DNA of 64,000 nucleotides from Isoetes taiwanensis (Eukaryota; Streptophyta; Lycopodiopsida; Isoetales; Isoetaceae), in NCBI GenBank assembly GCA_021234155.1, contig JAJEKV010000389.1:62001-126000 (forward strand), written 5' to 3'. The position numbers and the translations under genes were made by a program. The notes beneath the pieces are model-generated. The model was not told where the DNA came from. It was given only the letters and a program-made list of their open reading frames with translations, and searched no databases. Positions 31,012-62,100 of this stretch are shown piece by piece; the first letter of the stretch is position 1, and each line of letters opens with the position of its first letter.

Positions 31012-31058
31012 GAGAGAGAGAGAGAGGGAGAGGGAGAGGGAGAGGGAGAGGGAGAGAG
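31012..31058 (+). repeat. (GA)n/(GGGAGA)n simple repeat
   Basis: An AGAGAGAGAGAG run followed by about five GGGAGA hexamers. Confidence 0.95.
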
Positions 31059-31383
31059 TCGCCGCGAAACCTCCAAGGGTTGAGTTGGGTCACGGCTAAC
31101 GAGCTTAATGGAGCGCAACAATAAAATGAGGCTTAACCAGATAAACTATAAGCCCACCGCCACTAAAAACCTGTGGGTCGAAGCCGGGCACTAAGCACGA
31201 GCGAGGGTGAGATTTAAGAGGAGCGCCAACCACAAGCGAGAAGAAATGGAACATGTAGAATGCACCCATGAGCGACATTAAGGAGAACAAGAACGCATAA
31301 TGGCATAAGCGGGCAGATCGCGAAAACGACAAGCACTCAAAAGGAGGTGAGCGATTAGAAACGATTCCGGAAAAAAGAAAGGA

Positions 31384-31680
31384 CAACATCACCCAGGGGG
31401 TGGAGAAAAGCATCACCCAGCGGGTGGAAGAAAAAACATGATAAACAGAAAATTGTGTACAAATAAAGCTAAATATCAAATATGATGTGCAGGGGTAGCA
31501 CAATGCATAAGGATACCCGGGGGATGGAGAAAAGCATCACCCAGCGGGTGGAAGAAAAAACATGATGAACAGAAAATTGTGTGCAAATATAGCTAAATCT
31601 CAAATATGATGTGCAGGGGTAGCACAATGCATAAGGATACCCGGGGGATGGAGAAAAGCATCACCCAACAGGTGGAAGAA
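31384..31680 (+). repeat. 124-bp tandem repeat with palindromic CACCC..GGGTG cores
   Basis: CATCACCCAGCGGGTGGAAG begins at 31411 and 31535, and a variant begins at 31659, giving an exact period of 124 bp over about 2.2 copies. Each unit also holds ACCCGGGGGATGGAG. The element's left arm carries the reverse complement of part of this (22975-23010). Confidence 0.9.
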
Positions 31681-31840
31681 AAAGACAATAAAGTTATGTT
31701 TTAAGCCCAAGGATAAATACGAGAAAAGAGGAATGCAAGCCAATGAACAAATCAACAAGAAAAAACCACAGACAAGAGCCCAACGGCTAGAAAAATTGTA
31801 AAACACGATCGCCTTAAGAACAACATGAACAATGCTATAA

Positions 31841-34800
31841 TCCCCAAATATATGGAATACTCGGAACACAAGCCATGTAGCAATATTGAAAATAACTAAG
31901 ATGGCATACACAAGTCAGGTAACAATACGTAAACAACTGGCAACAGACATAAAAAGACAAAGTGCAACCTGGCAAATGTGGTGAATAAATCTCGGGCAAT
32001 CAAAAGAATGAAACCATGAGAATGCAGCATATAAAATAGAAAAACAACAGCACAGCCCGAGGAAACAACACATAGGCCACAGAAAGAAACTAAAGTAAAA
32101 ATGCGGGCCAGAACATAAACAAGAAATCAACCGGAATAACCCAGACAACTGTTGAAGAGTGCGGTGCATCAAAAAACAAGATAAACCACAAGTGCAAAAA
32201 ATAAACCCCAACAACTATGGAAAACCTGGAATGTAGAAGATAATACCACCCGAATAACGTATACCACCTGAGCCAAGTGTAGTGCATCACACATAAGATA
32301 CAAACACAAGTGCAAAAGATAAAACCCAAACCACCATGGGAAAATCCTAAACACAGAAAAGAATGCCACATATAACCACATGGGAACCACAACATAAAAA
32401 AAAAATAACATACAAAAGAGATACATGTCAGAGAAATAACACGCAATAGAGGCCATACTGCAACCTACCATGGAAATGGAATGCATCAATGTAAAAAGGA
32501 CAAATGCAACCCAGAAGATGGTCGCCACAAATCCATAGGCAATAAAAAAGATAATAAACCAAGAGACTGCAGCGTAGAATTATGAAAACAAGACAACATC
32601 CCAAGGAAACGACCACAAGACAAACCGAGGTAAAAAGTGAGCCAGAACATAAACAAGAGAAAAACAGCGCGAGGAGAGCATAGACCCATTTAAATAGTAT
32701 GGTGCATCGAATCCACGATAAAAACACAAGTGCAAAGAAGAAAAATCCGAAAACAACGAGGCATAGGTGAGAAGTAAAACTTTTAACTAACAATACGCAA
32801 AAGTTGACAGAAGGTTCCGAATATTGCCCACAAAAACAACTCAACAGTGAAGATGACCTTCCCTAAAAATGAGAAGACCGCTATCAAAATAGATCACGTG
32901 AATGCAACATAGGGATAATAGCAAGGGAAACAACAAGAGTGACGAAAACATAAGGTGCCAGAGATGAAAAGGACAATAGATGTAGTACGTATTAATGAAG
33001 GCGAAGAAACCCATAGAAATATGTGAATGAGCATGCAGAACAACGTATGGAAAAATGAATCGGCGTAAGTATCCAATGAGACGTAAAGTATAAGAGCAAC
33101 AACTGATATCACAATGAAAATAATGATTCAAAGATTAATATTAGGATCAAATTAGGCTAATATGGGCAAACACCATATAAGGAATCAAGTATACCATTTC
33201 CCGGATTAGCATGCCACAAATGACCAAACGCACTGTATAAGTCAAAAACAATTTATACTTGCAAAAAGACATCGTATAGAAAACACACCGCAAATTATAA
33301 TTAAAAACCAGACAACTCACAAGTAAAACATACCGGAGGGAATACAACCATGTAGGTGTGATAAAGAAACAAAGGCGTAAAGAAAATATAATAAACTGTA
33401 TATTTAAAAAGCTAAAATAAATGACTGAACGAAGGCAGTATAGAGAGTTCCATAGAAAACGATGTGAAGGAAGCATAAGGTGGAAGGTAAAATTAAGCAG
33501 AATTAGAAGAAGAGAACATGAAACATGGGCTCAGTATCTATCTAGGTAGGAGATTTGTGCTAAAAAGTAACAAAAGTGATGTTGGTCTATGAACCAAACG
33601 AAAATCTGAAAGGCGAAATCAGTATGTGGCCAGCTAGAGTAACCACACGACCTGCTGCAACCACTTGCACAACTCCCTTTTTACAGGCCCATCGATCCGG
33701 CATGTGAATTGGCCCGTTTATACAGCTCTGCGAATCAGATCCTATTTAAGCATGGAAAAAGTAGCGGCATGGATGACAAAATCTTCAAAGGCAAAACTGT
33801 GACTGTCAAAGAAGAATGATGCCATGGTTGAAAACCTCCGCTGGGACCGGTGAAGAGGGGCTTGAGCAAGTGATGTAAGCCTAGAAACCTGTGAAGGACT
33901 TGTGGCGCCAGATAATGCACAATAAACCGAGGCTAGAATTCGATGAAGGAAAATGCCAGTGAATTAGTGGATGGCTAAAAAAGCTCATGCAAGTGTAGAT
34001 GTAAAGGGCAAACATGGAATTTGGGCTGTCTGAGGAAAACGCAGAAAACCTGAGGATGGAGGTTGATTACAGATGAGAAATGGAGGGGAAAACCTGCCTG
34101 ATACCCCAACGATCCAAGAAAGCGGAAACTCCCCGCACAAACCGAACTCGCGAGAGATGCCAAATATAAATTGATAGAGCGGAAAATCTCAGCTATACAG
34201 CATCGGAACTGCAACCCTCGTAAGTGATCTCAAACGGGCTGCAACAAGCTAAGCAACCTGATGTCCGACTCTCGTTGCAAATAATGCCACGACCTTGGCT
34301 GTGGCGAAGCTTCTTGAAGCAGAAAACATCCAAACACAAATCAATAACTTAAGTGCAAAGAAAATGGTAAAAAGAACTCCACTGGCATTCAAAACTGGCA
34401 TAGAAAAATAGAGGAGATGGCCCATCAGATGGCGTGGTCGATGAAGAATAGGATTATTGAATTCCGTCATGCATGAACAATGGCCAGGCGACTAAGAGAA
34501 CTCCATAAGTTCCATTGCCCATAACATAAATGCATGCACAAATCACCCAAGACCAAATTGGAAAATAAGCACCACAGAACTCCGTTACATAATCAAAACC
34601 TCCTCAACGATATAATTCCGCCATGAGCATGAATCACAAACAACAAAAAGTAGCTGTAATCAATAGAGAGTACAAACAAGCATCACAAATCTCTATGCCA
34701 CACTATGCTAAGTAAATGATCATGCATGGGAGAGAAATAAGAGCTTACCTTGGAGAGAAATAAGAGCTTACCTAGAAAAGGACGATGGTGAGGGCGAATA

Positions 34801-35006
34801 AGAGGAAAAATACAAGAGCTGACCTGTCAAAGGGACAATGGTGATCAGGGCGAAAAGAAGGAAAAGATCGAGGATGAGGAGGATGCCGATGACGAAAGGA
34901 GGGAAGCAACGGCAACAGAAGGGAAGCAACGAGAATAGAAGAAGAGCTGCTGTGAGAAGACGCCGATAATCGGTGCGAAAGAGGAAATAACCTTATATAG
35001 CAGCTC
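31841..35006. other. Gene-free part of composite element
   Basis: A+T-rich on a plus strand that is also A-rich. It yields long T-rich, hydrophobic frames on the minus strand, none with a recognisable domain. Small local duplications occur (for example GAGAGAAATAAGAGCTTACC twice at 34730-34775). I see no gene here. Confidence 0.6.
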
Positions 35007-35048
35007 GTCCTTTCCCAGAATGGCGATCCGATGGCTCGGATCGATGCT

Positions 35049-35641
35049 ATCGGGAGGAGGACAGGCCCAAACTCTGTTCCGTCAGTTCCCCTTGCTCCAC
35101 GTTCTTGGCGCAGCTTCTTGGCCACGTCCCAACTACAACAGACCAAACCTTGGCCCCCAAAACGCAAACCCTTCTAGAATCTGGCAAACCACAGGGTTTA
35201 TGTTTCGGAGGCCCTCTCCTTGTCAGATTCGGCTGGGACCTTGCGCCGTGTCTTGATGTGGAGTGAGGATGTTGACGCCAGAGCACGGACCCTAAAATCC
35301 CCCCGGAAGCTGCTTGCCCCGAATTTCCTCTCCCCAAGGCCCTGGGGATGGACGGGCAACCTCCCCTCTCCGGAACCGTGATTTGGCTCTGCCAATGGAC
35401 TCAGAACGTCGACATTGCCCTGGGGACCAAGCTCCATGGCCAGAAGACCACCCGACCTTCAAGAAGCGCCAAAGTAGCTCATGCCCAGCACACTCGTAGT
35501 CAATTGGCCTAGATGTGGATGCCGGATACTGTCGTGGAGGGCGTGTTTCTTTCTTTTGCAAAACCGACCTTGTAACTTGCTCCCTAGGGTAATTTCGCCA
35601 TTCCGGATGACTTGGCGAGGTCGATTTGCCATTCCGGAGCC
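35049..35641 (+). repeat. Satellite fragment, continuation of the split unit
   Basis: Resumes exactly where the unit at 22392-22517 was cut (ATCGGGAGGAGGACAGG) and ends at CCATTCCGGAGCCT. Together with 22392-22517 it forms most of one satellite unit. Confidence 0.9.
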
Positions 35642-36555
35642 TATATTGCGCATTTGAAGCATGGAACCAAACCAAACAATACGCGCTAGTCAGGCGGCAT
35701 TCTAACAAACAATTTTTGCAAATCCCTAAATGCTCCTGTTTTTGTCAATCTTTTTTGCTTTATAAAGATATTTCACGGCACATGAAAAAAAGCGGATAGA
35801 GAAGCTACTGACAATTTTTATCATATCAATTGTAGCATTCACATACGCGAGAGTAGCAAAATATGGCTACAACAGCAAGTTGTAGTGGAAAACTCATAAG
35901 TGCAGTTCTACAAACTAAAATTTGTAGTGGTTTCATGGCACATTGGTCGCCAACAGCCCAAAGGATAAAATGCATGTGACATCTAGGATCTGGATAACGC
36001 GCATCAAGCGAGTCTATGGGCAATTCATGCTGCACCCATGTATGCGCACAAAATCTTTGTAAAACGTTGGTCAATTTGCCAACAATTTACATAGATTTGG
36101 GTACAGCCCACATTGAAATTGGAATTAATGATTCCAGGGAGTTTTGGTAGAAAGACGGCATAATACTTTAAATTAGATAACACAGGTAGATCGGTTAATC
36201 AGCTCAACAACGATCACATCATGTTTGTGTATAGAGTAAAAGCGAGAAGAGTGAGCACATCTGCTGCTTCATCACATCCGCAACAACTGGCAAAGGGACA
36301 ACTTCGTTTTACAGCCCCTCCACCTGATGTGGCACATATCCAGACCGCACAATCTAGACATCAAGGGCTGGGATAATGCCATGCCAGAGGAGGGGCTGCA
36401 AAATGAAGACTACCCCTGGCAAAAGCTACTCGTGCATCACATGACCAACAAAAGACCACATGAGCTGTTGAAATACATCACATGTATTAATATGTGTAAA
36501 GACGAACATTTATTTTAACACGATGCATCATTCAACATTTCCCAAGAGTAACCAT
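35642..36555. other. No feature seen
   Basis: A+T-rich sequence without repeats, motifs or frames that I can support. Confidence 0.5.
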
Positions 36556-46136: not shown

Positions 46137-47304
46137 GTGGGTATTTTCTGTTCCTTATCTTCTATAAGTTAGCCAGAAAGTGACATGTAGCTAAAGCTCG
46201 ACAAGACTATCTTCCTTAAAGTAGATCTTTCGAGCTTCATATCTTTACCCCATATGCTTTGTGATGCATTTCTACACAATTGACATGATAGATGCACGTC
46301 CTTGCTAAGGTAGAAAATCCATATCTCTTTTATGCACGACTATCTATCTATTTATAGCAGTTTAAACTAGAGTAAACAAGCGACATTTTGATGTACCATT
46401 TGATGCATTGTTAGTCTACTTAACATTGCTATATCTTGCCTAACGTGAGGATACCGCACTATCTGCTCTTGCATATATGTCAAGTGATTAAATCTAGGCA
46501 TGTGCAAATAAATTGCAGCTAGATATCTGCAATTCCTTGCGTGCTTCTTTGGCAACAACCTTAAAGAAAACAAGTTCAAGAGAAGGTAAAGCATTTTCAA
46601 GCTGTGGTACAGATTTAAATCATGCCATTAACAGGTTCAAGTTGTACATGTGTGACTTCTTTGGTTAAGCCCTAGGACATGATAAAAGTTGATGCCTATC
46701 TTTTACTTACTTCCTGCACTAAATTTATGCTTTTTTTCAAAAGATGACATATTGTCAACCCCCTTGAACCCCCAAATTCCTCCAAATCTTTGTATCATCT
46801 ACGTATTTATCCATGTTCTTAAAAACTGGTCTTATTGAGTATGACTCCTTTTGTCTGAATTTCATGACATTCACATGGCTCTCTTATCATAAATTGTGGC
46901 AGTGTTTGGCTGAGAGCTCACATAATTTGGCAAATGGGTGTGATTGTATTGTCTTTCCGTCTTATAACCATCATCCAATTAAATTGGGATTATGTCAACT
47001 CCAAAATCACGCCAACCTGCTATTGTCTTCTAGGGGGTTTTTGTTTTTTTTTAATCTTTTTTTTTGGACTTCAAAAATAACATAAGGTTGCGATTCACGT
47101 GTGACTTTTCATATGCGAATTGAAATATACAGAAATGAAGAGCAAGTTGCTAACATAGATGAGACCAAAATTGCTTGCTCGATAGATGATAATATTAGGT
47201 TCAAATAATAACAGATTGCATTATTTGCGAGGCAATTCCAGACTCGAAATTATCGATACATGGCACAAATATCATACAAAAATATCATATATTCCAATAA
47301 AACA
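46137..47304. other. No gene seen
   Basis: A+T-rich sequence downstream of the exon-like blocks and of the phosphatase-like remnant. I see nothing specific. Confidence 0.5.
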
Positions 47305-48074
47305 TTAAGGGATCAATCCATGTTTTTCCACGTGTTTAACAAGGTGTGGTTCCATGTCAGCCGTTCTATCCAGTTCTGGGTACGAATCTAACACTTCACC
47401 CACCGTCATCCCCATAGCCAAATTATGTATAATAGACACAAACTTCACCAGAAAATCATCTGTCGCAAAGTTTTTTGGATCGTAAGATGGTGGGTTCAGG
47501 GCCTGTGTTTGATTGTAGAAGCATTTGAGAGCATCATCATCCACTATGATTATATCATCCTTATTCTCGATACCAAGTTCGTCCACCATGTTACTCAAGT
47601 GTTTGATGAAGATAGGCTTGCCTGTTGGATCCTTGGGATTAGTGAACTTCACACATTTGTTCTGATCCCAAAGGGTCAACCAATGTCTACGATTTCCCAA
47701 AGTGCCTCCAAAGTATCCTTGATGTTCCTTAGTTCCATGGATGACCAAATACCAACTCGAAATAACCTGAATGCCTCGTCTAGCATCTCCTTCAAGTGCG
47801 GCCGCGGATAGATCCACTTGGTGTTTGATTCTACTGGTGTCTGATGAAACTGTTCTCTAGCCACTTTATTTTTCGGAAAAGTCTTGCAAAGGACTCCGTT
47901 TAGGTCGAACACCACAACCTTCTTAGAAACGCAATGGAATGAAACATCAAACATGTATCCGGTCAGCAAGATACGATAACACAAACAATACAAACGCGCA
48001 AAGCGTGATTTGAAATAGTCATAACCAAATCGCGCTTCGGCAAGTGATTTAGTTTGACAACGAAAAATAATCAA
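47305..48074 (-). pseudogene. FCP1/NIF-type HAD phosphatase-like gene, one frameshift
   Basis: The minus strand reads KKVVVFDLNGVL (HAD motif I, with Asn where a second Asp is usual), WIYPRPHLKEMLDEAF, VGIWSSM (motif II), then after a one-base shift near 47698 LWDQNKCVKF, KPIFIKHLSNM (motif III Lys), and IIIVDDDALKC (motif IV), ending HVEKHGLIP. Motifs I to IV in this order are those of the FCP1 homology domain, whose known members dephosphorylate Ser/Thr of proteins such as the RNA polymerase II tail. The start at 48074 lies right beside two copies of the local palindrome (48077, 48119). The Asp-to-Asn change and the frameshift argue that this copy is inactive. Confidence 0.75.
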
Positions 48075-48076
48075 AG

Positions 48077-48130
48077 CACGCTTGGCGCGATTTAATTCAA
48101 AGGTAATACAAATTAAATCACGCGTGGCGC
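48077..48130. repeat. Two palindrome copies upstream of the phosphatase-like gene
   Basis: CACGCTTGGCGCG (48077) and CACGCGTGGCGC (48119), variants of the CACGCCTGGCGTG family, each next to an A/T-rich ATTTAATT or TTAAAT word. Degenerate copies lie at 47994 and 48030, within the first part of the reading frame. Confidence 0.75.
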
Positions 48131-48241
48131 TATTTCGTGGGCAAGGCCATACCTATCATCTTCAGTTTTTTTGCCGTCATCGGCGTCATTCTCCCCTTTG
48201 CCACCCTTAATCTTCGTCTTCTTTCCGATTTGTTAGAATTG

Positions 48242-51200
48242 TTATTTTCTATTAGTTTTATTTGCGTCCTTCACAACTGACATTATTTTACTATTGATTT
48301 GGCAAACCTGTGAATCACTAGAGCCGCCTTCGTTGCCTTCATTTTCGGTTTCCCTGTCAATTAGTTCATTGTTAACCTGTGAATCTACTCTATTGTTGCT
48401 TGCATCACCCGCAATGTGGGCAAGGATATTCCCTAAGTTCGCCGCCATCCGCGATTACTTTGAGCAACCGGTTTAGCGACTATTTGTTCATTCGCTTTTT
48501 CCTTATCGGCTGCAGATTACTAGTTCCCTCTCCAGAGCAACGCCCACTTTCGAATTGGACAAGTCTACGAGACTTTTGATTGCTGATGATTTCAGGTTGC
48601 CATAAGGGCCTTTAGGAGACTTGGCAAGCACATGCATGAGGAATGGTTCAAGAAAGTCTTTGGCCTGCTCATCACTCACAAAGCAGTGACATCTTCTTGC
48701 ACCCATAAGAGCCTCTCGGGCAATATAACCTCCAACATGAAGCTCCAAGCAGGTTGTATCAATTGGAGCAAATGCCTCGACGAGGTAAGCAGCCATAGAC
48801 GGGGGAAATCCATTTTTATTTAAGGGGCCCTTCTCCTTAGTTTGTAGCTCGTACTTGATTTCCCCACTTAGGAGGGGGTCCCGATCCTCATCCTCTTGAC
48901 TCATCCTGTTCTGACTGATCCTGATCCGTATGAAAGAATATAGTTCTTAAGTCTGGATCATCTAGAAGAAAACATTCCCATGCACTGCTATTGTCACCCT
49001 TGGCCTTAGCAATATCATATTCGTCGTCTGATAGCATGGCTATCATAATGAAGATCACATGTGCCATCTTTCGTGCTGTTCGCAGCTCATTATCCTTAAC
49101 ATCATATATTAGGCATCCCTCCCTAATAACTTTGAGGCACTCCAGATCATGAGCAGCGGATAGTGCATGCAGATGTGACTCACCTGAAGGACAAACGATG
49201 ACAATAGTGAAGGACCTCTCAGTTGTCAATCCTATACAACTGGTAAAGAAGTTGTTGTAGTCCTTCTGGTTCATGCCCATATCTCCTCTCCCACCCCTGC
49301 TGTCCAACACAAAGAGTGATATATTTTTAAGGCCAGAAGTTGAATCTGGCAAGAGACCTTTGTACCCAATGGAGACTGAATACTGGACAATGTCGTCTTC
49401 TCTCCAAATCTTCTTCACAAGGGCCACTTTTCTTCTCAACTCAGCCCATTACCTTAGGGGTAGAGTCTCCTTATGTTTTGTATTTTTAGCCTTCCAATTC
49501 TTTAGGAAGTCCTTTGACCAGAATACAAACTTCTTGATGTCATCATTCTTGACCTTGTATTTGTCCAAACAATCCAATTTGAGATAATGCCACATCCCCA
49601 GATAGTCTTTGTAACTTCGGCTCCTACGGTGACTTCATTGTCACGATACATCCTTTACATGGCTGCAAAGACTCAACGAAGGACATCCTATCCTTGGTGA
49701 AAGCACCCTTCTTGTATAAGACTTCCTTCTTTAAGCACTGGTCTAAAACCCAAATGGTCTCGGTGGCGTCTAGCCCCCGAAGTCTTTCTCATCTCTGTCA
49801 CATTCAAGTCAAAGATGCTTACATCAAGGGGAGGCACCCTACCCATAGTATCGGCGGCTTCCCTTGTGCATAAGCGCCCTGAATTCATTCCACTTGAGCC
49901 ATACTGCCTCCTTACAAAATACAATCTTATACGAGTCTGTTGGTCCTGACCAGCTGGATGAGCTTTCAGAAGGATCTGCAATGTCATCACCACCTTTTTT
50001 CTTTGACTTTCTTGCGGTCTTCTTCTTCTTTCAGATAATTGTTCATGATGCGAGTCCGCTCAAAGCAGCCTTGAATGCCTCAGACTTTGACCCGCTCTGT
50101 CTGGTGGGCAATGGGCAGCCATATTCCACCCACTGTTGACGGGCGTGGCGCAGTTGTTCAACGTATGGACTGCAATAGTACAGACATTGAATCAGTATCA
50201 TAGAATAGAAACACGTCGGGCGCGATTTGAATAGAATTGATCAAGAGAAAAATCACGCCTGGCGTGAAATGAGTAAAGTTACTAATGCAATTCACGCCAG
50301 GCGTGCTTTCAAATCAAACCAATTCACGCCAGGCGTGTTTTCAAATCAATCGAATTCACGCCAGGCGTGTTTTCAAATCAATTGGTTGATTTGAAAACAC
50401 GCCTGGCGTGAATTCGATTGATTTGAAAACAGCCTGGCGTGAATTGGTTTGATTTGAAATCGATTGATTTGAAAACACGCCTGGCGTGAATTGGTTTGAT
50501 TTGAAAACACGCCTGGCGTGAATACAATTTATGAAACCAGTTTGTATAGAAATGTCTTCCCCATTTCATTCAAAGTTGCACTAATCTCAGCCAAATCTGC
50601 AGGTGAAGTATTGGCATCCAAGATACGACACCTCCTATACGCATAGTGATTGTAGAACACTTTTTGGCTTGTTTGTTCGTTCGCCCGATGATGGCCTTTT
50701 GTGCCTCAACGAATCTTTGCCCGTCGATGATGACATATTTAATATCATCACTTGATAATAGCTCCTGGACGTTCGTCCACACAGCAGGCTTGTTCGAGAT
50801 CATATCCCAAGGTAGCACATCCGCTGGCATAGGCATTTGACCTGGATTACTAATCATGCTCTGAACAATCTCCATGGCATGTGCTGGATCATATCTTCTG
50901 CTAACATAAATGGAGCTTGGTGAACGGATGAGGGACTTCACATGGATCGCAAAAGTTTCCTTAAGACCCAATGGATAATGGTCAGAGTATTTATTCAAAC
51001 TTGTTCATGGCCTCTAGGCTGCGCCCACTGGCCATCTGTTCATTCTCAAAAACAAGCCTCCATGCCTTCGACAAACTGCAGGTTGAACATCCTTCCCTAG
51101 ATCTAGGACCCTCTTAGAAGCTTTCAAGTCAGCTAATTCCCTAGCTTGCTGCAAATAGTGACTTGGTGTCGGTTTAGTGAACATGCCTCTACGCACAGCT

Positions 51201-51690
51201 GTAACCCCTTGGCAAATAGATATTGGCGTAACTGCTACATTGGTTGGCCAACCATACTTAAAACATGTCTCACCGTTCACATCTGTCTTCATGAACATAT
51301 CCTTGTATGCAGTAGCTCTACAGTGAGTAAGTCTGAGCAGATGTTTCTTCTGCTTCTGTGTAATCTCCAAGAGCAATTTACAGTTGGTGTCATCCTCTTC
51401 CTCACAAGAGATTAGGATCCCTTGTTTGGCCATCTTGTCTGCTTCCTTTTTCCTCGAGAAGAGAGTTAAGTCGAGCTTGCCATTTGTCTTGGCAAGGTCA
51501 ACGTATTCACGGCACCCTCGCCCATTTCCTCTTTAGGTGGTGGTCGATTGGTTGCTATAAGAATCGGCCCTTCATCATCTAAGGTGAGATCATATGGTAT
51601 CGTGATTCGGGTCGTCTGCCCTTGCTTTCTTGGCAGGATTAGAACCCGAATTATTAGGGGTTTTCTTCCTCTTGAGCATTGCAAATGAAG
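48242..51690 (-). pseudogene. Broken gene: ParB-like domain plus permuted DNA-methyltransferase-like domain
   Basis: Minus-strand pieces in order: basic N-terminal part (51690-51014); a ParB-like stretch (50998-50570) with RRYDPAHAMEIVQSMISNPG, then IKYVIIDGQRFVEAQKAIIG; an intron-like gap filled by palindromes (50540-50175); a block after an acceptor at 50174 (VEYGCPLPT, KSKKKGGDD, VWLKWNEFRALMHKGSRRYYG); DYLGMWHYLKLDCLDK (about 49600); then LFVLDSRGGRGDM with FTIVIVCPSGESH (49439-48888); then CLELHVGGYIAREALMGARR, CHCFVSDEQAKDFLEP (48904-48503). The last two blocks sit where DPPY and FxGxG motifs sit, in that order, in beta-class DNA methyltransferases, but the catalytic motif would read DSRG. 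Frameshifts lie near 50640 and 48895, with others likely. The function is inferred from fold-like motifs only; no family was recognised outright. Confidence 0.45.
50212..50520. repeat. Two-directional array of CACGCCWGGCGTG palindromes
   Basis: Copies start at 50212 (variant), 50254, 50293, 50325, 50357, 50398, 50429 (truncated), 50476 and 50508, spaced 32-41 bp apart. Left of about 50384 each is followed by TTTTCAAATCAAT. Right of it the same flank appears reversed (ATTGATTTGAAAA), so the array itself is an inverted repeat centred at AATCAATTGGTTGATT. It fills an intron-like gap of the broken gene on the minus strand. Confidence 0.95.
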
Positions 51691-51727
51691 ATGAGCACTT
51701 TTTAGAGTACTTTTCAGAACAAGAGAT

Positions 51728-51778
51728 CATGCTTGGCGTGCATTTAAACCTAAATTAGTACAAATCACGCTTGGCGTG
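51728..51778. repeat. Two palindrome copies upstream of the broken gene
   Basis: CATGCTTGGCGTG (51728) and CACGCTTGGCGTG (51766), 38 bp apart, directly 5' of the first coding block of the minus-strand gene at 48242-51690. Confidence 0.85.
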
Positions 51779-52690
51779 TTGGTAGCTCCTATTATTGACC
51801 ATGCAATTATTTTGCATCCACATTTTAAGCTACATACCCTTCATGAATCCATATTTCACACTATTTAACCTCATTGAACATTGCTATCTCCAACTGTCTA
51901 ACACCGCTATATTCTATATATAAAACAGAGCAAAATTATGTTCTACAGAACGGACAATCAGAGCATTAACTGATGTTAATACTTAAAATTCATGCAAAGC
52001 ATAATAACTCAAACTCATGCAAAGCATATTAAGTGAAAGGAAATATCTCAAATTCATGCAAGCATAATACTCTCCACACAGTGTGTATTCTGTGGCAAAT
52101 TAAATACCTTGAATAGGGTTTACGTGTATTCTGTGGTATTACGATCAACGCCCTCCAAGCTTGAGAAGTGCCGGGTTTTGGGATTCCTCTTCCACCGCTT
52201 CCCCTGCGCCCGTCCCTCGACCTCGATTCGCTTTAGAAGACATCTCCGGAGTCGCCTAGTAACAGAGTCGGAAGGTCGCTCGGATACGCGCTCGCTCAAG
52301 CTGCTCGAAGAAATAGCTTTTTCTACCTGTACGAGAAATAGAGAAATTTGAATTTCAAGAAAACACAAAATGCAGTTTCGAAATATTCTTGACACATACA
52401 AATAATAATGACGAAGACCCGTCCGTGAGACTTCTTTCATTAAGTTTTTAAAACCAATCTACCCAAAACGTATCCCGCCAAATTTATCCCGCCTAAACGT
52501 AGTTAACCTAATCTTTCTTCTAATTGATTTTTTCGACCGCCCGGAGTTTCCATAGCCTTGACTTCTCAAATCAGCTTCAGGAGACTCAAATCAGCTTCTC
52601 AAGAATGGCTCTGCACTCGGGTACTCATCTCATTCCAATAGCTTGAACATTAATTTCCAATAGTAGGTGTCTGAATAGCAATTTTCTGCA
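51779..52690. other. No clear gene
   Basis: Sequence with repeated CTCAAATTCATGCAAAGCATA words (about 51985-52070) and a more G+C-rich part at 52140-52310 without a recognisable protein. Confidence 0.4.
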
Positions 52691-52945
52691 GTGTCGAAGA
52701 TGAATGTTTCATGTTAACTACAAATCAGAAAAGGAAAGTAGGATTATGCAAGATCGACTCCATCGATCCGACTGTAAACTGTCATGGAATTCGCTTTCGG
52801 GGATAAGTATGTCCGAAGTTACAATGATTAATCACGCTGCGCTATGGATGAAGCTTTACCTCATGAGACACACCGGTGGGGATACGGTTGGAGAAAGTGT
52901 TGGAACATTTGTTGCATGGCCAAGAAACCGCTTAAAAAGGTATGT
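52690..52945 (+). pseudogene. Transposon N-domain-like fragment
   Basis: The plus strand reads ...HAALWMKLYLMRHTGGDTVG followed by ESVGTFVAWPRNRLKR, ending at a donor-like AAG|GTATGT. A short VGxxVAWP-type motif occurs in the N-terminal part of many plant transposon-associated proteins, and a related CIMAWP occurs in transposon copy B (about 56630). The rest of such a protein is not visible. Confidence 0.35.
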
Positions 52946-53072
52946 AACATGTATTACATTGTAGAAATATAGAAGTAGACAAAATTTGTTGTATTCATTG
53001 GAAAAAGATTACAATTGTATATAATCACGGATAAAACCGGATAAACCGGACAAAATCCCGGACTCTTTTTTT

Positions 53073-53690
53073 TCAAGCCCGGTCATGAGTAGGCGGGCTA
53101 TCGATCTCCCATTTCCATTGCGGGGCATAGTGAATTCTTCCGGTAAAACCCCAAAAAAACACTGGGGCTCTAGCTCCACCACCCCCCTGCTCCACCTCCA
53201 CCTCCACCTCCTGCTCCTGCTTTCCGCTGCCCTGTTGAACCTCCAATGCATCATTATAGCGCCGCCATAGTGGTTCCATTGGTTGAGCCATCTCCATTGC
53301 ATCAGATACCGCCTGTGGTAGTGGTTCGTGTTGGGGCATCCGGGCATAGAGGCTAACCACTAAGAAACGAGCTCCTCATTTTGAATCTCGAAATGACGGA
53401 TGCGAGATTCACTCTCGATCAATGCATGTACCGCATTCTCGGTGATTAGATAAGAGGGCCGACCTCGGATGCGATTGCAAGGGCCCCCGAGCCCAGATCT
53501 ATGATTGCCCCGCGCTCCGCGCCATCATCATTACTTGATCCAAGTACTCGGGGGTTGCAAGATCGGTGCTCCACCGGACGGGTGCTCGGCTGCGGTTCAA
53601 CCGAGTGGAGATTGGAGCCAAACCGAGCTGGGCTGTGTGATTGCTGGCCCAAATGTAATTCCAATGCATCTTCGCCACCAACAAGGGTGA
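53073..53690 (-). other. Decayed reading frames, possibly one gene remnant
   Basis: The minus strand shows frame-broken, protein-like text: MHWNYIWASNHTAQLGLAP (about 53670), LITENAVHALIESESRIRHF-EIQNEELVS (about 53455-53370, helical), and a Glu/Gln/Val-rich tract (EQEVEVEVEQGGGGARAP, about 53215-53155). Stops separate the pieces. The family is not recognised. Confidence 0.25.
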
Positions 53691-53868
53691 TTAATGTAAC
53701 TTGGCATCTATCAATAGGAAGTGAGCGGAGTATCGCGATTCATTCCGGGCGTGTTATATTTATTTATTTATAAACTTAGAAACTAAGAGACCCGGCGTGT
53801 TTAGCGTAAAAGTTGAAAGTAGGGATACAATTGTTTGCATTTCGCCGTGTAAACCGCTATATAGGAAA

Positions 53869-54058
53869 AACTAGACGCCGGCGTGCATTATTCGAGAGAG
53901 GGGAAAAAAAACAGACAGATAGATAAGTAAATAGATAAAGGCCAGGCAATTATTTACACGCTGCGTGTAAATAATTGCCTGGCCTTTATCTATTTACTTA
54001 TCTATCTGTACAGGTTTTTTTTTTCTCCCTCTCTGCTGAGTGCACGCCGAGCGTGTAT
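53869..54058. repeat. 190-bp near-perfect hairpin
   Basis: The centre is at 53962 (TTACACGC-T-GCGTGTAA). About 50 bp on each side pair almost perfectly (GATAGATAAGTAAATAGATA and GGCCAGGCAATTATTTACACG and their complements). Beyond that the arms still match through the A8/T10 tract, GAGAGAGGGG, and the CGCCGGCGTGCA / TGCACGCCGAGCGTG ends, with small indels. Outer and inner tips are themselves members of the local palindrome family. Confidence 0.95.
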
Positions 54059-54087
54059 TCATGTTGAAGGCTAAGGTTACCATAAAA

Positions 54088-54100
54088 CACGCTTAGCGTG
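54088..54100. repeat. Palindrome copy CACGCTTAGCGTG
   Basis: A single perfect-stem copy (CACGC TTA GCGTG), 33 bp beyond the end of the large hairpin. Weaker relatives lie at 53745-53815. Confidence 0.85.
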
Positions 54101-54683
54101 TTTCAAATATTATCTTTCAGATTTTTCTAATGCTTTCTACTACACTTATTCATAATAGAAACTTGCATGCAATAGCATGATTAATTCAGGAAGAGAAACT
54201 CAAGAATTTACTCGAAACAAAAAGAAGCAGATGAAGTTTATAAAAAACTATTCTGGTTTTCATAAACATCATCTGCTTCCTCTGCCTCGAGCAAATGCAA
54301 AAGCTTGTCTTCTTGGATTAAACCTGCCATTGAGATGCAACTTAAAACTAAATGAAAACTAACCTTGAGTTCTGAGGCTGGAAGGATTCGAAGAACGGAG
54401 GACTATGCTTGTGGTTTTAATTCCGAGGCTTTTCGATTCATGAGACCTTAGTCCTCTGCTTTTGGTTTTAATTCGAGTCTCCGATTTCCTGCGCTACGAT
54501 GCTGAGAACAAAAGCTGAGTCTTTTAGTAAGTTAGGAATTGCTGAAACCAAACATCTAACATTGATGAATATAAATCTGCTCACCAAGATTTCGGGACGG
54601 CGGATCCAAACACAGCAGAAGCGCAACCGGCAAATCGTATGAAGGAAGGAAGAAAATGTAGGAACTTTGAGAGCGTAAAATGG

Positions 54684-54756
54684 ATTTATATAGGCACAAT
54701 TAGAAATAAGTTAGCGTGAATAATTGATTGCTTGAATTAACACGCTTTGGCGTCAC
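54684..54756 (-). promoter_or_regulatory. Promoter with TATA box and palindrome element
   Basis: On the minus strand, in transcription order: GTGACGCCAAAGCGTG (54756-54741), then TTCACGCTAA (54720-54711), TTTCTAATTG, then TATA box CTATATAAATCC (to about 54682), then a C/T-rich leader. Order and spacing match the promoter at 55886-55950. A donor (CTTG|GTGAGC, 54588) and a possible acceptor near 54514 fit a 5'-UTR intron. No long frame follows, so the gene it drove is lost or unrecognised. Confidence 0.55.
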
Positions 54757-55448
54757 GGTCTTCCTTGAGACATGACATGTATATGGTATATATGGAGAAT
54801 ATTGCATTTCATGCAATAAATTCTCCACTGACATTTTATTCCATTTATTGCATTCGAAAAAATAGAATTTAGAAATTTTATATAGGCTAAATTAAAAATG
54901 ATTTTAAAGGCAAAATTATGAAGGCTAAAAAATGACTTGTAAGGTTGGGGAATTGTTTTAGGTCGTATAGGAAAATTTCCTATGGTTCTTGTGGTTTGAT
55001 TTATAGTGTTCAGAGACTTTGTTGAGACAAAATTCTGAGATACAAAATTTTAGAGAAAACAAAGACGAACAGAGACAAAATAATTGGAGAAAACAATTGG
55101 ATTTAATTCAAATAATTTTTATGTACGAAAAACTGTTTTGAAGAACACTTGTTTGAAGAAAATTTTATGAAAACTGTTTGATTTCATTCATAAAAGTGAT
55201 ATGTACAGTAGGTAAGCCCGAAGGCTTGTAAGCAGGTGCCCAAAGGCTTTTCACAAAATTACATGAAAAATATGCCCGGAGGCGTGTGCAAAGCTTCTGT
55301 AGCAAACCAAAAAACAAAAGGGCCTGGAGGGATCTCGCATCATTGATCTTCGACGCCCGGAACAAAGAAGAAAGAAAGGTGTTAGAAAAGAAAGAAAGGT
55401 GAAAAAAATAAAAAAGAACATGCAAACCTGGCTCATCTCTCGACCATT

Positions 55449-55834
55449 CTAAAAATCGGTCAATTCTCGACCTTCCTCCTCATCCTCTTCCTCCCCCTCC
55501 TCCTCCTCTTCCTCCTCCTCCTCTTCAGAGATTTCATTCTCTGTTTCAGGGTCAAGCCAACCCTGAAGCAGAGCGGTTTCATGCTCTTGGGAGGACATCT
55601 CCTCCTCTTCCTCCAACTCCTCCTCTTCCTCCTCTTCAGAATCAGAGGAATCAGAGGAGCTCAACTCCTCCTCTTCCATGTCAAAATCAGAATCATCCTC
55701 TAAATCGGAATCAGAGGAGAATTGGGCAAGAAAAACTATGGGGGGGGGAAGAGAGGGGGTTCTTCAACCTGACGTCTCTTTGACGAGACCTCGGGTTCTT
55801 CATGAAGTTCGAGCGCTGAGGCTGAACGCTTCAT
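55449..55834 (-). pseudogene. Acidic, Ser/Glu-rich nuclear-type protein, one homopolymer frameshift
   Basis: The ATG at 55834 begins MKRSASALELHEEPEVSSKR with a basic SSKRR cluster, a possible nuclear signal. A run of nine C (minus strand, 55740-55748) then shifts the frame into a stop. Immediately after, the next frame reads FLAQFSSDSDLEDDSDFD, then EEEELSSSDSSDSEEEEEE, an MSSQEHETALLQGWLDPE island and a second Glu tract, ending ELTDF at 55449. Very acidic tails of this sort are common in histone chaperones and nucleolar proteins, but nothing family-specific is visible. The one-base error could be a sequencing slip, in which case the gene is intact (about 129 residues). A TATA box lies about 52 bp upstream. 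Confidence 0.55.
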
Positions 55835-55885
55835 GGCGGGCAGAAAAAAAAATTGGGACAGAATGGTCTTGAGAGCGTGAACCGG

Positions 55886-55950
55886 ATTTATATAGGGTTA
55901 ATTAGAAATTAGCGTGAATAATTTATTGCCTCAAATAACACGCCAGGCAT
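55886..55950 (-). promoter_or_regulatory. Promoter of the acidic-protein gene with palindrome element
   Basis: On the minus strand: ATGCCTGGCGTG (55950-55939), TTCACGCTAA (about 55918-55909), TTTCTAATTA, TATA box CTATATAAAT (55895-55886), then the leader and the ATG at 55834. The same elements in the same order occur at 54684-54756, which makes chance unlikely. Confidence 0.6.
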
Positions 55951-56299
55951 ACGAAATTCCCGCCAGCTATATTATCTAGGGTATATTATTATGGATAATA
56001 AATTCTCACGTCTATTAGTTATATGTCTTTTCGTAATCATATATCCAAATTTTCGATAATTAAAATTTGGATATATTTATATAAATGTCATTTCCTTGTT
56101 GTTGCCATGAAAATTCTTGTTTTAAATGATTTCGTTTACGCCCATTGTTATTATTATATTAAACCTATTTCCAAGGAATTTCTTGCTTTTAAAAAATTTT
56201 GATTTACCTCTACATATTCCATAAATGTACGTACTTTTTTTATCTTATGGTGTAATAATTTTTTCTTACTCATTGACTAAAAAGGGTGCAATTTGCCTA

Positions 56300-59188
56300 G
56301 GTCAATGGTGCCTCTCCAACTCAAGATGGTGAAAAGAGCAATATCAATGAAAAACCAACTACTAGCAAGAATGTTGAAGAAAAACAATTAGTCCTCTATA
56401 GTAGGGTGCAATGGAGGAACAAGAAGGTGAGAATCATGCACAAGTGCAACAAGGAAATAGTAGGCCAAGGAGTCATTGTGCTAGCAGATCCTGGTCAAGC
56501 TGTTAATGATGAAAGGCTAGGGGAAGACAATATTGGTATTGCAATTTCGATGTTGGAAGACAACTGGAAAGGTAAAGGTTTGGGTGACAAGGAATGTTTT
56601 GGTTGTGTCAAGCAATTGGAGGTTCCTTGCATCATGGCATGGCCTATAAGTAGTGTTCAATTTGTGGAGGATTATATTTTTCCGAGCCCGAGGTTGTTGG
56701 GGACAATGATTGTCTTGATATTGATCCATTGGCGGTTGGAACTCTAAACCTAGGCAAAAGGGGAGAAGTATCGGTTGCCGACATTATCCTAGCAAAAGAG
56801 CCAAGTTGATTAGTGACACCAAACGTGAGACAATGGTGAAGGTTAGGGGCTCAGATTGTTGTTGGAGTGATTGTATGCAATTCTTCACAATAGAACAATT
56901 GGTGGAAGCAAGAGCCACTTTTCAAGAGTACACCGTTGATGATGAGAGGAGGACCTACATGTACACAATCTTCGAGCATGCACTTCAAGATGAAAGAAAC
57001 CCAAAGAAAAAGATACCCTTTGCTAGGCAAATGGATATGTGCAAAAGCATGGCGAGTATCCATGCAATTCCAACTTCTTCATGGCATAATTGGCAAAAAA
57101 AACAGGCAGAGGGGAACAGGATTGCTTTACATGGAAATAATGGTTTGTTGAGACCAACAGCTAGGACCCTGGCTGCCAGGGAGATATTTGAAAAATATAT
57201 TGATTTCAATGCAGAGTCTATGCCACACAAAGCGAGAAGGGATGAAAAGGGAAGAGCAGCGGTTGTTGAGAAAAGGTTGCCATCACATTGTACTCAAAAG
57301 AGTATTTTGGAAGAAGTGAATTCCCTACTTCGAGAATTGGGAATTCTTCCAATATCCCAACCTAGCTTTAGTAGGTTATGGAAGAAGCATTTCAATCATG
57401 TCACCATAGCAACTTCAAACAACTTTGCAAAGTGCAATTTATGTGCTAAGTTGAAGGAGACTCTTGATAAGACTGTGCAACCTAGTCAAAGGGCTAGGAT
57501 AAGGGAGCATATGAAGGACCATATGACTGACCAACTATCATGTAGATCATGTTATTGGATGTGGAGGACTTTATCTGCATTGGAACCCAATAACTATTTA
57601 TGTATTATACATGACAAGATGGACCAGCAAAAGACTTGTCTTCCACAATTCAAGTACATACCAAAGTCATGTGGAAGATCATACCCTTTACAGATCTCAA
57701 TGACTGGGGCAATCTTGCATGGGCAGAATCAAACCTACTATGGCCATTTTAGTTTGGAGTTGTGGAGTGATGGTCCAGATTTTCATATTGGGAGTATCAT
57801 GAGGTGTTTGAGAAACTATGAAAATGGATACAATGGTCAGCTCCAGGACCTTACAGCTAGCCAGGCACTACATAGAGCATTGTTAGATGGAAACCCTAAC
57901 AATATTGAAAAGTTCAGCAAGGCAAGGTTTAGGAAGCATGGGTCTAATGAACATGTTGGAGCTTCAACTTCACGTGCTAAACCTCAAGATCTACCCAAAA
58001 GGTTTCTCTTGCAACTTGATAATTGTCTTTGGCCAAAATAAGAACGGTGGATGTTTTCTTTCCTATCCTACTTAACATTTTGTGGGGATATTTGAAAGAG
58101 TTAATTTAGGGTTTCTTATGCCGGGCATACCCATGAGGATGTGGATGCATTATTTGGCAAATATAGTTGTATCTTGAAGCACAAAACAAAGGACCAACTT
58201 TCCTAGGCTAATGGAAATCTTGCATGAATGCACTACTCCAAACCCTATAGCTTCTCTCATAGAAGAAGTGTCCGATTGGAAGAGCTTTGTGGATGGTTAT
58301 ACATTGGATCTTGAAGGTCATTCCAGTGCCTCTGCAGTTCACTTTTTGGTGAGAGATGGGATTCCAATCTTCCAATGGAAGATGAGACCTTCAGAGGATG
58401 AGTGGAGAGGAGGGAGGAAATATGGCGTAGAGATGAGAATGGCAAGCCTATGATACCTCTAGGTCAACCAAAAGCTTTAAAACCCACTGAAGAAGTGAAG
58501 CAATTGGGATTGACTAAGGAAGGAATCCAAGACTATATAAAGCATTGGCAAACCAATCCAGATGACACCAACCGTGCCTTGGTGGCTTCTTTGGAAGAAG
58601 GTGATTAACTTTGTTGGGGGGAGATAGACACATCCTCGGATGAATTGAAAGAAGGGTGGTTGCCTAAGACTAGGTGGAAGACCTTAGCAGGTTTGAGGAT
58701 TTTGATGACATTTGTAAGTAGCATTCGCAAGCAATATGCTCCTCCTCCTTCCGACAAACACTATGTTGGTCCTAAGAACGATAGGCCAAAGTTTCTAGGC
58801 ATGGATGCTTATGAACCTTCCATCGACTTGGAATGCCACCAATTTGTGGTAGTAAAGCCATCGATTTAGATACATATCCGGTGTGGTTGGGGTTCACTAT
58901 CTCTCGATATTTGCAAAGAAGAAGGTAATATTAACTTCAACCATGTGCGGGTGGAATGGTGGTGTCCGGTGCATCGGTTGACCAACGATCGGATAAAGAA
59001 AGGTACTCGATTGTTGGACAAAGAGATGGAGGAGAACCGAAAGTGATCCCGATCTTTGGCTAGACTATGAAAGTGTTTTGTACTCATGGACTCCAAACAC
59101 TATTCCAGCTAGAAATGCGAGAATTACAATACCTCAGAATGTCAGGAAGAAGGCTATGATATCATTGGGGGTGCTTGAAGAAAGTTGA
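56300..59188 (+). pseudogene. DDE-type transposase (DUF7869-like), copy B
   Basis: After an acceptor-like TTGCCTAG the frame reads VNGASPTQDGEKSN, MQWRNKKVRIMHKCNKEIVG, GVIVLADPGQ and LEVPCIMAWPIS. A frame change near 56690 leads to the long frame ending at 58041: SIGCRHYPSKRAKLISD, a zinc-binding-like CNLCAKLKE...CRSCYWMW, the catalytic-type HDKMDQQKT, then LDNC. Further frame breaks follow (58025, 58120, 58215, 58600, 58700, 58860), with DVDALFG, DWKSFVDGYT, WKMRPSEDEW and MEWWCPVHRL-like pieces, to a stop at 59188. It is fuller than copy A and about 85-90% alike by eye. It lacks the Helitron at 57600/57601. Flanking 3' homology with copy A runs to about 59385. Confidence 0.75.
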
Positions 59189-62100
59189 ATAACTATGTAA
59201 ATTTTTGTTATCACGTTTTTATGATATGGTGCTATATTGTGAAATATTGACTATTTTGTAAATAACATGATATTACGTTTTCATAATTTTGAGGTGAAAT
59301 GTGTGAATTTGAATATGCTACTAAAAACATGCAATATGAAATTTGTCCCAAAATTAAGACATAAACCCAATTTAATTGAATGATGGTTTTATCAATGTTT
59401 CCCTATATCCTCTTGCATGAAGGTGCACAGTTATGTTTCTTAGAGTATTATTACTTGAGATAACTTACAACTTTAACGGTTGCTAAGAAGACACTCCCAT
59501 TTGCAGAGGTTAATATACCCAATTTGATCTATGCATTTCAGAAAAGCAATTTGACTACAAATTTATCATATTTGGATAACTGCCTTATGGTCAATCCTTT
59601 CAGTTCTATTTCTGCTACTAATTTCTGTACTGCTATTTCTATAGTGATTTCTACTATAGCTTCACATGTCTATTATCAGTGGTGCATCTGTATTCTCTAT
59701 GTTGCGTACAGATCATGGGCACATGCTTAGACTGTTAGACATTATTGGAGCATCTTATACTGGCTGATACCAGGTAATGAAGTTGCATAAATCTTCATGG
59801 TTTTTGCCGCAAATTATCCTATGCACTGCTAATTTTTGGTATTCAATCAACACACAGTCACACTTTGTGCTCACACTTTGGGAACAGCCCAAAATTGAAG
59901 GCGCAGGTTCATGGCAGCATAGTTAACAAAGGAATTCCATTGCATGCACATGGAAGGCAGAGTCACCAGCAATATCCCAAGGTTGCAGATGGTTGATAGT
60001 CTTCCAAACCTGTAGATTACGACATTCAAGCATGAAGCATGCCACTTGAGCAAGACCTTTCCTTGCACAGTGCTAAGCAACTGCCGCACTCGGACCCCTG
60101 TTATACTTCAACATCTCGGTAAGGTGCAATACTTCATAGCCAGTATTGAATTTATTGCTGCAAAAATGAAATCATCCAAATGCTTCCACTTTTGGTTATT
60201 CTTTTTTATTTTCATCTTTGATTATCAATTAAGTACATCTTTTTAATTCCCATCTGCCATCAAAGACAACTTGGATAGACATTAGAGTGTGCAAGGCGGA
60301 GAAATGTCCGGGACACATTTTCATGATTCTGATTGATAATATAGGCGTTCACTTTTCCAATCAACTCTCGGGCCTTCCAAAGGTTCGTGACACAAGATAA
60401 TGTCATGATTGGACGGGTTCAACAATGAGCAGAATACAGACTGAGAATGGCAAGGAGCATTTAGATATGAATGCTCTGGCTTTTTTGAAAACATAACAGT
60501 AGACCTTTGTTCTCTGAATGTAAAATTTTCGCTTTCTAATGCAAGTTTATCTTATCCTATTGTGTTTTGCTATAAGGTCAGAATATGCATGCTAATACTC
60601 TTTGATACTAAAGTTTCTTGCAAAGTGGATACGGCCATGGCAAGCTTCCTCCTTCATATCGACATTAACAAATAGGAAATAAGATTGTATCCTAGCTTCA
60701 ATCCACAGTTCGCTCTTTAGATAGACTCATGCTTGGAGATGATGTGTTTTGTCAAAATATGAGTTCTTTTTCTCTTAAATATTTAGAATTTAATTGGCCT
60801 ATGTTCTTGATTGTATGCATTGTTGGTCCGAGCAAACATGTATCGAGCTCTGCGTTATCAAATCTGAAGCCGAACAATGCATTCATGTTATCTTCAAAGA
60901 TCAAATAGTTTGATGAAGGTATGAGGATAAATCTTGCATCATGTGGTCATACACAGTTCAAACCACGTTTTTCCACGTTGCAGATTGGGCTATAGCATAG
61001 GTGCCTTACAACTTGGAGTCTCTTTCTGTCTCGGATTTCAAAGCACATCTGAGACACAGCCATGGGTGTTTTGGAAGATCAGTCTGGCCAGGTAAATGAG
61101 CTATCTGGCCAAGTGAGGAGAATTCCGTCCTTAAATCATGATGCAGCATTGTTGTTAGGTTCTTTATTTAGCTTCTAAATGGATCGATTAGGAGTTAGGA
61201 TTTTAAGATGGTATTTTGATTTATTTAAGGCATCATTTACAGAAGAATCCTCCTTTTCAATGTGGAGCCAATGGGCAGATAAATGTCTCTGCTTTTATAA
61301 CAACATTTCTTCTCTCAGGCTCTGTTAGCGCAATGTATTGAGGTGATCTTTAATTTTGACGTTTGCCTCTTCCAATCTTCAGAGGAGTCGACTCAACTAA
61401 AAGAGTGAATGCATTCGTTTTGAAGGTAAATCCTTAGATTACAAATAGAAGTATGAAAATAAGCCTCCTCCAGCTCTGGAATTTCACCCACGTGTTTATG
61501 CTGGCTCTAACAACAACTTGCTAGGAACAAATCGAATGCAATTACAATATATATGAACCTGTTAAGAATCTGAAAAACAAGATACTGAGATAGACTCATC
61601 TGAGGTGAGAATGTCTAGGTTCAACTAAACCATAAAACAATCTTCTGAGCTTATGAATCCTATCTTCAAAAAGGATAGTGAACGATTTTCTTAGTCCTAA
61701 AGTAAAATATTTAATGAACACATGGAAGATGCTATTTAATTTATGATCCGTTAATTTATTCTATTTAGATAGCCCATTGTCCATTGTTGTCTGTGATTTT
61801 GATGCAAGAATAAATTCAAGCTTGCGTGAATCTGATTGTTTCTATTACATCTCTCGCAAAGTTTGACATGTTGGAAAAAGTATTTTTTCTTTGTTTCATC
61901 TTCGAGGCAAGTTTGGTGTAATTATTGTTGCTGTCGTTGCACTTATGGCATATGTAAGACAAAGAAACTATGCTATATATTCTAGGTGCAAAACCATGTG
62001 AAAAACAACAAAATGTATCACGAAGAGAGCCATTCTAAAAAAAGCCAAAGTTTCATATAGCAGAAGAAAATGGTGTATGCCATAATGGTACTAAATGTGC

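Follow-up and report, generated by a model that had tools for sequence, protein, structure and literature searches.

An Isoetes taiwanensis DNA transposon with a frame-broken ParB- and methyltransferase-like accessory gene and arrays of family-specific palindromes

The 64,000 nucleotides of the Isoetes taiwanensis genome analyzed here (NCBI GenBank assembly GCA_021234155.1, contig JAJEKV010000389.1, positions 62,001 to 126,000 of the forward strand; hereafter the window) contain a complete DNA transposon with a transposase-like gene and, divergent from it on the opposite strand, an accessory gene in which a ParB-like block is followed by a permuted methyltransferase-like block that has lost its catalytic motif. 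Paralogous loci from the same genome (labelled with L-numbers) form subfamilies A (the window type), B, C and D and a sister lineage, I, with an intact DNA methyltransferase, and short palindromes arrayed in these loci differ from lineage to lineage. We consider it somewhat probable that the window holds a decayed copy of a transposon with a VANC-like accessory protein, serving sequence-specific self-recognition and anti-silencing. The features of the locus are collected in Table 1.

The two arms of the terminal inverted repeats (TIRs), 34 nt each (46963-46996 and 59358-59391), are 91% complementary, and homology between copies breaks at 46963-46969 in L009, L013, L014 and L016, which is the accessory-side end of the element; in L012 and L010 it ends earlier, at 46998 and 47227, respectively. 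Perfect 4-bp target duplications, the length that Sola1 transposons make, flank 11 of 11 elements (the window element and ten other end pairs from the I. taiwanensis genome), and inside the duplications the termini read 5'-AACCATCATY...RATGATGGTT-3'. Across the assembly searched (1,658,258,908 bases, 1110 contigs), a 28-mer of the TIR with at most one mismatch occurs 1470 + 1489 times (2959 in total), and its reversed control not at all. Two pieces of the plus-strand gene match DUF7869 (PF25273) at 4.9e-5 and 0.0011, both below the curated cut-off, and the first piece shares 56% identity with the L048 transposase over 403 amino acids (aa) and 20% with that of L050 over 364 aa (E 2.8e-12), the latter lying head to head with its own accessory gene and matching DUF7869 at 6.3e-9. 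Judged by these similarities, the gene at 56725-59188 is transposase-like, a homologue of a sister transposase that passes the DUF7869 cut-off; as to kinship with Sola1 transposases, what was observed is similarity to DUF7869, in window and sister. The preliminary description of this locus had taken it to be eukaryotic and possibly mobile, which the TIRs, the 4-bp duplications, the transposase similarity and the repeated copies bear out. Elsewhere in the window, this transposon is represented once more by a 1.8-kb fragment, which has an end of its own near 21268. Many copies of subfamily C (L110-L118) are >90% identical to the query and several have long open frames, so parts of the transposon family look young.

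The preliminary description had further placed a single frame-broken gene at 48242-51690. A real gene lies there, but the interval covers only part of the unit: homology to exon 1 starts at 51685, a NIF-type piece reaches to about 47305, and the element spans 46966-59388. The motif strings on which that description relied are all present in minus-strand open reading frames (ORFs), with RRYDPAHAMEIVQSMISNPG and IKYVIIDGQRFVEAQKAIIG at 50570-51004, LFVLDSRGGRGDM and FTIVIVCPSGES at 48888-49448, and CLELHVGGYIAREALMGARR at 48503-48946; because the first two ORFs recur in the genome, with at least 150 matches (150 of 3635 candidates scored) and at least 151 matches (150 of 3274 candidates scored), respectively, these motifs are more than chance. 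The better paralogue L019 (subfamily A) has ORFs of 397 aa for exon 1, which ends with a ParB-like block containing FVVIDGQHSVEAQRALI, and 677 aa for exon 2, which runs from a linker through FVLDSRG and a middle part to ELHVGGYIGRQAL. Against L019 the window copy is indeed broken, with several frame changes and 16 stop codons summed over seven partly overlapping homologous stretches, its exon 1 being 58% identical over 348 columns (a further 46-column piece 78%) and its exon 2 represented by five stretches of 55-77% identity. Downstream, the first part of the NIF/FCP1-type HAD phosphatase-like block matches PF03031 at 6e-7 (29.7 bits, above the 21.8 cut-off) and the second at 0.0018 (18.4 bits, below it). 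Phosphatases of this type carry a nucleophile and acid-base motif DxDx(T/V); read by eye, the block of subfamilies A-D has DLNGVL or close to it, with Asn in place of the second Asp, so the block may itself be altered. A NIF/HAD block follows the methyltransferase-like block in all four subfamilies A-D (by eye; Pfam was run on the window copy alone), and we infer that it is part of the same message as the accessory gene. In sister loci L049-L051 no such block was spotted by eye within the 1.4-3.1 kb that follow the methyltransferase, where no search was run. The element ends, the transposase, the NIF block and the palindromes all go beyond the preliminary description.

Table 1. Features of the transposon and of a second copy in the window (positions as numbered in the window).
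Feature	Position	Strand	Basis or remark
Complete DNA transposon, 12,423 bp	46966-59388	.	Paired TIRs and flanking 4-bp target duplication TTAT
Terminal inverted repeat, accessory-gene side	46966-46996	+	34-nt arm 46963-46996 pairs with 59358-59391
Terminal inverted repeat, transposase side	59358-59388	-	Pairing with 46963-46996 and duplication boundary
Target-site duplication TTAT, left copy	46962-46965	.	Read at element edge
Target-site duplication TTAT, right copy	59389-59392	.	Read at element edge
NIF/FCP1-type HAD phosphatase-like block, motif VVFDLNGVLCKT	47305-47930	-	PF03031; probably 3' exon(s) of accessory gene
Accessory exon 2: linker (NEF...QGLD), permuted methyltransferase-like block (FVLDSRG, then ELHVGGYIAREAL), tail; frame-broken	48263-50231	-	Homology to L019
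Intron 1 (inferred) with seven exact CACGCCWGGCGTG palindromes	50232-50540	.	Gap between homologous stretches
Accessory exon 1: N-terminal part and ParB-like block, core DGQRFVEAQKAI near 50.7 kb; frame-broken	50541-51685	-	Homology to L019 exon 1
Two weaker palindrome copies (2 and 1 mismatches), upstream of exon 1	51728-51778	.	Near-match scan
Transposase gene, in pieces (overall 56725-59188)	56725-58041, 58178-58453, 58402-58608, 58609-58869, 58997-59188	+	ORFs, DUF7869 similarity
Fragment of second copy: transposase end and TIR (21246-21265)	19460-21268	+	blastn, 80.6% identity, 1830 columns

Three palindromes, CACGCCWGGCGTG (A-type), CGCGCCWGGCGCG (C/D-type) and GTATTCCGGAATAC (I-type), partition with the lineages. 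Counted in 39 loci (17 A, 3 B, 11 C/D and 8 I), the A-type palindrome occurs 52 times in the A loci (present in 12 of the 17) and is absent from the other 22 loci and from the 51.6 kb of the window outside the element; the C/D-type occurs 23 times in the C/D loci (6 of the 11), once in the three B loci and never in A or I; and the I-type occurs 25 times in the I loci (6 of the 8) and nowhere else. Subfamily B has mixed half-sites such as TCGCGCCTGGCGTGT. The seven exact copies in the window lie at 50254-50520, and all 13 near-matches of CACGCCWGGCGTG in the window fall within the element, with 0.47 expected in the whole window. Genome-wide, TCACGCCWGGCGTG occurs 1013 + 1052 times (control 1 + 1) and TGTATTCCGGAATACA at 3392 places (control 0). 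In a hand count among the matches listed, on contigs up to C292, 8 of 10 A loci (the window's included) have a site no more than 2 kb away, the two without one being that on C35 and one of the two on C112. In eight loci most of the short spacings measure 31-34 or 39-42 bp, which corresponds to some three and four turns of the helix, and values of 64, 73, 78 and 84 also occur; the pattern is descriptive because the copies are related. In L050 (4797-5537), six ATTCCGGAAT palindromes 41-42 bp apart (5027-5233) lie between the divergent accessory and transposase genes.

Several observations weigh against taking the palindromes as sites of the accessory protein. The exact A-type palindrome is missing from 5 of the 17 A loci, among them L006, L007 and L016, which span intron 1, and the exact C/D-type from 5 of the 11 C/D loci; at up to two mismatches the five A loci have eight sites (L016), six (L007), one each (L006 and L021) and none (L008). 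The partition alone is no proof of a protein partner, because each lineage passes on its own palindromes. That the accessory protein binds them is a prediction, and they could instead be recognised by the transposase or by host factors of splicing or silencing: transposases, too, bind repeated sites, and CCWGG contains a symmetrical CHG site and its flanks CG sites, so host methylation could be involved. What makes this alternative rather unlikely is that the arrays are internal, mostly within accessory-gene introns or between the two genes and not at the ends of the element, and that subfamilies A, B and C have nearly the same TIR yet different palindromes. Compared by eye with the ORFs, the sites lie in introns or intergenic DNA, with two exceptions, one site each in L119 (5080) and L120 (4721); both are in a part of the exon-2 ORF, its unconserved tail, that may represent read-through into an intron.

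In the sister lineage (L042-L051) the accessory gene encodes an undoubted beta-class N6/N4 methyltransferase, as judged by profile, DxPY and FxGxG. Of 1444 candidates from a genome search with PF01555, 150 were scored, and all matches listed lie above the curated cut-off; the methyltransferase exon of L050 matches at 2.1e-17, likewise above it, with DLPY(G) and FSGSG. Both DLPYGF and FSGSG are found in ORFs of L042, L044 and L048-L051, DLPYGF in a partial ORF of L045, and FFGSG in L043, which has no first half among the ORFs listed. Profile-profile comparisons were judged against column-shuffled decoys, and the sister profile matches viral methyltransferases with Prob 99.3 and 0/60 decoys as high. 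For exon 4, the ratio of nonsynonymous to synonymous substitution (dN/dS) is 0.01-0.03 in five pairs, and a further, close pair has 0.26. A tblastn search of phages with L050 exon 4 returned phage methyltransferases (729 records; 25-33% identity among the matches listed), and the 473-aa exon 1 upstream of it, which contains LGGNHSFKARRQL, had no match in phages by tblastn and no significant match in a PDB sequence search. Viral contigs yielded no confirmed relative of L019 exon 2 or L050 exon 4, and thus nothing there suggests a viral origin.

The window lineage is connected to this enzyme by profile comparisons. The methyltransferase-like block of the four subfamilies (14 rows) matches the sister block with a score of 24.2 over 207 columns (0/70 decoys as high), the linker matches the sister linker (20.9; 0/100), and the ParB-like block matches both its sister counterpart (21.3; 0/60) and viral ParB (25.5 and 23.5; 0/60 each). 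Where the four-subfamily set aligns with viral enzymes, the aligned part is the S-adenosylmethionine (SAM) motif region, in the expected register. The ParB-like block of L019 exon 1 has weak matches to phrog_1033 (ParB-like; 0.11) and DndB (0.061), and at the ParB-type GxxRxxA core the copies read DGQ(H/R). As P1 ParB has no PF02195 match at 0.1, the ParB proteins of a Leptospira phage and two viral contigs served for comparison; a Rhodobacter phage methyltransferase, in which a ParB fusion had been expected, has no ParB domain by Pfam. The first comparison left out L001 and L005 (duplicates of the window) and, from L003 and L047, stretches that were divergent or out of frame (seven stretches in all), together with L042 (a duplicate of L050) and L043 and L049 (each lacking one of the two sister exons); L086 and L087 were unused.

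Other results point the other way. When the window ORFs and better copies were searched against Pfam, NCBIfam, PHROGs and PDB sequences, neither ParB nor methyltransferase was matched significantly; PF01555 and PF02195 match none of the window or paralogue proteins of the window lineage, and a genome search with PF02195 found nothing (2 candidates scored). The first methyltransferase-like set was equaled by 3/60 decoys against the sister and by 19/60 and 17/60 against viral enzymes, and the four-subfamily set by 9/70 and 4/70 against viral enzymes. Decoys scored as high in 22/60 cases for the whole protein, 6/60 for an enlarged ParB-like set against the sister and 38/60 for the sister ParB-like block against viral ParB. 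Controls with unrelated blocks gave 17, 6, 13, 39 and 9 of 60 decoys as high, and another 18/30, but for one unrelated pair (linker against sister ParB-like block) none of 30 decoys scored as high, which makes this a lenient test. AlphaFold models made without an alignment for two window ORFs had a predicted local distance difference test score (pLDDT) of 48 for the ParB-like and 36 for the methyltransferase-like block, too low for either model to be of use, and a Foldseek search with the first found nothing at E <= 0.001. Low-scoring matches to an SPT8 propeller, PTB, gp37 and the like were dismissed as chance.

The accessory protein of the window could on this evidence be an unrelated coding sequence in a real transposon, its likeness to ParB and methyltransferase a coincidence of short motifs, since Pfam finds neither and most profile scores against known families lie near the decoy level. 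We hold this to be unlikely: three blocks have their counterparts in the sister protein in an unchanged order, no decoy scored as high for the linker or for the methyltransferase-like block, and the gene has the same opposite-strand layout next to a related transposase. Homology of the window lineage to the sister accessory protein is therefore probable, by virtue of the shared block order and gene layout rather than any single score. The ParB and methyltransferase homology that the preliminary description proposed fares less well; some profile scores exceed their decoys, but Pfam detects neither domain, and the direct profile evidence argues weakly for it.

That description had also read the block order as ParB-like followed by methyltransferase-like with a catalytic motif changed to DSRG, and this is upheld in the paralogues. 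We aligned 14 rows of the methyltransferase-like block (seven of subfamily A; L017 and L018 of B; L118 of C; L119 and L120 of D; and L113 and L116, the other five of L111-L117 being too short or having no motif that was found), across which L019 (A), L017 (B), L118 (C) and L119 (D) are 48-73% identical. None of the 14 has a (D/N/S)PP(Y/F) catalytic motif or an FxGxG SAM motif. The catalytic position reads DSRG in eight, as in the window itself, DSRT in two, DNRG in two, DSCG in one and DSMG in one, and all 14 have H(V/L)GGY where FxGxG is expected, the two regions standing in the expected order; the intact sister enzyme is independent support. Over the linker and methyltransferase-like block, dN/dS is 0.15 for L019-L021, 0.05 for L118-L120 (dS 3.4, near saturation), 0.21 for L119-L120 and 0.31-0.58 within subfamily B, where few changes are present; between A, B and C/D the synonymous differences (pS) are saturated at 0.79-0.90, whereas the nonsynonymous ones (pN) are 0.24-0.36. 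This purifying selection means that a lineage without the catalytic motif is kept as a protein, and the window type is thus probably maintained and non-catalytic. A still working methyltransferase with an unusual catalytic motif could equally show the high conservation of the region (FVLD in 14/14, DS in 12/14), as an active site would, yet it is very unlikely, with both the DPPY-type motif and FxGxG changed where the sister retains both; we know of no N4/N6 enzyme with DSRG. Domestication, which the preliminary description had raised, shows no sign in a repeated transposon gene with 2959 TIR matches and is set aside, as is an endogenous virus in view of the TIRs, the 4-bp duplication and the transposase-like gene.

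Among known systems, bacterial ParB-parS, in which parS is a palindrome, is alike in having a ParB-like block and clustered palindromic sites; there is no evidence of a partition function in Isoetes, where ParA and a helix-turn-helix were not sought. The closest layout is that of Sola1-1_Ec32 of the brown alga Ectocarpus, whose accessory gene on the strand opposite the transposase encodes 1104 aa with ParB-like and N4C/N6A methyltransferase domains, proposed to bind and mark its own element, and the same source reports ParB-methyltransferase accessory genes in brown, green and red algal transposons (PMC12477816). The large size, the 4-bp duplication and the opposite-strand ParB-methyltransferase gene of the Isoetes element are reminiscent of Sola1-1_Ec32, but the Isoetes host is a lycophyte and the window lineage lacks both catalytic motifs and has a NIF block; family-specific palindromes have no mention in the passages of PMC12477816 consulted. 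The accessory protein VANC of VANDAL elements in Arabidopsis offers a parallel of another kind: its short motifs occupy introns and upstream regions as arrays that change between subfamilies, and both motif binding and loss of DNA methylation have been demonstrated (PMC5735166). Both systems pair a transposon accessory protein with family-specific motif arrays in noncoding parts (with the exceptions among A and C/D loci given above). By the same source, the VANC motif YAGTATTAY is not a palindrome and is arrayed in one orientation, whereas the Isoetes sites are palindromes, and the likeness, with binding and demethylation demonstrated for VANC and predicted for Isoetes, lies in the arrays and not in a comparison of proteins. 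Fungal DNA transposons carry another DNA-modifying accessory gene, TET/JBP, of a different enzyme class and in different hosts (PMC12730594). The preliminary description knew of no plant system of this type; for eukaryotes at large the algal transposons contradict it, and for land plants it may hold, no land-plant case appearing among the papers listed in the literature searched (judged by titles and the beginnings of abstracts, with primary algal descriptions outside the scope). What appear to be new here are the land-plant case, the lost catalytic motif, the added NIF block and the palindromes.

We propose that the locus is a worn copy of a cut-and-paste DNA transposon abundant in Isoetes, and that its accessory gene, head to head with the transposase, may be of the ParB-methyltransferase kind known from algal transposons. 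The sister protein would bind the GTATTCCGGAATAC palindrome, often repeated at 41-42 bp, and would methylate adenine-N6 or cytosine-N4 within its own element. In subfamilies A-D the methyltransferase fold would be retained as a non-catalytic DNA- or cofactor-binding part, with CACGCCWGGCGTG or CGCGCCWGGCGCG as the putatively recognised palindrome, and a HAD phosphatase-like block would have been added, perhaps touching transcription. By recognising arrays in the noncoding parts of its own family, as VANC does, such a protein could protect the copies from silencing or regulate their transcription. A bolder version, which we regard as possible though doubtful, is that a prokaryote-type ParB-methyltransferase module has turned into a fast-diversifying self-recognition system in a land-plant transposon, each lineage pairing its own protein with a palindrome array at near helical spacing, one branch being a working N6/N4 methyltransferase that writes a bacterial-type mark on a plant nuclear genome and the other a catalysis-free, parS-like self-tag with a phosphatase-like arm possibly acting on RNA polymerase II.

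If true, one land-plant nucleus would hold very many bacterial-type DNA methyltransferase genes (1444 candidates, 150 scored) alongside a non-catalytic sister lineage. This would link the question of whether plants truly have N6-adenine or N4-cytosine methylation, and direct it, to that of how sequence-specific proteins let transposons escape silencing. The family-specific palindromes are candidate recognition sites and thereby offer falsifiable protein-DNA pairs.

Outside the element, an Rfam search of the 64-kb window gave no match at gathering scores. In its very strong AT skew the region 28000-36000 differs from the remainder of the window, with 2-kb windows giving +0.43 to +0.47 at 28-34 kb and +0.21 at 34-36 kb. 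The region 6000-18000 is GC-rich (0.51-0.57). Three related minus-strand ORFs beginning KPQCF at 8489, 10778 and 16391, with a fourth at 21376, represent another repeat family.

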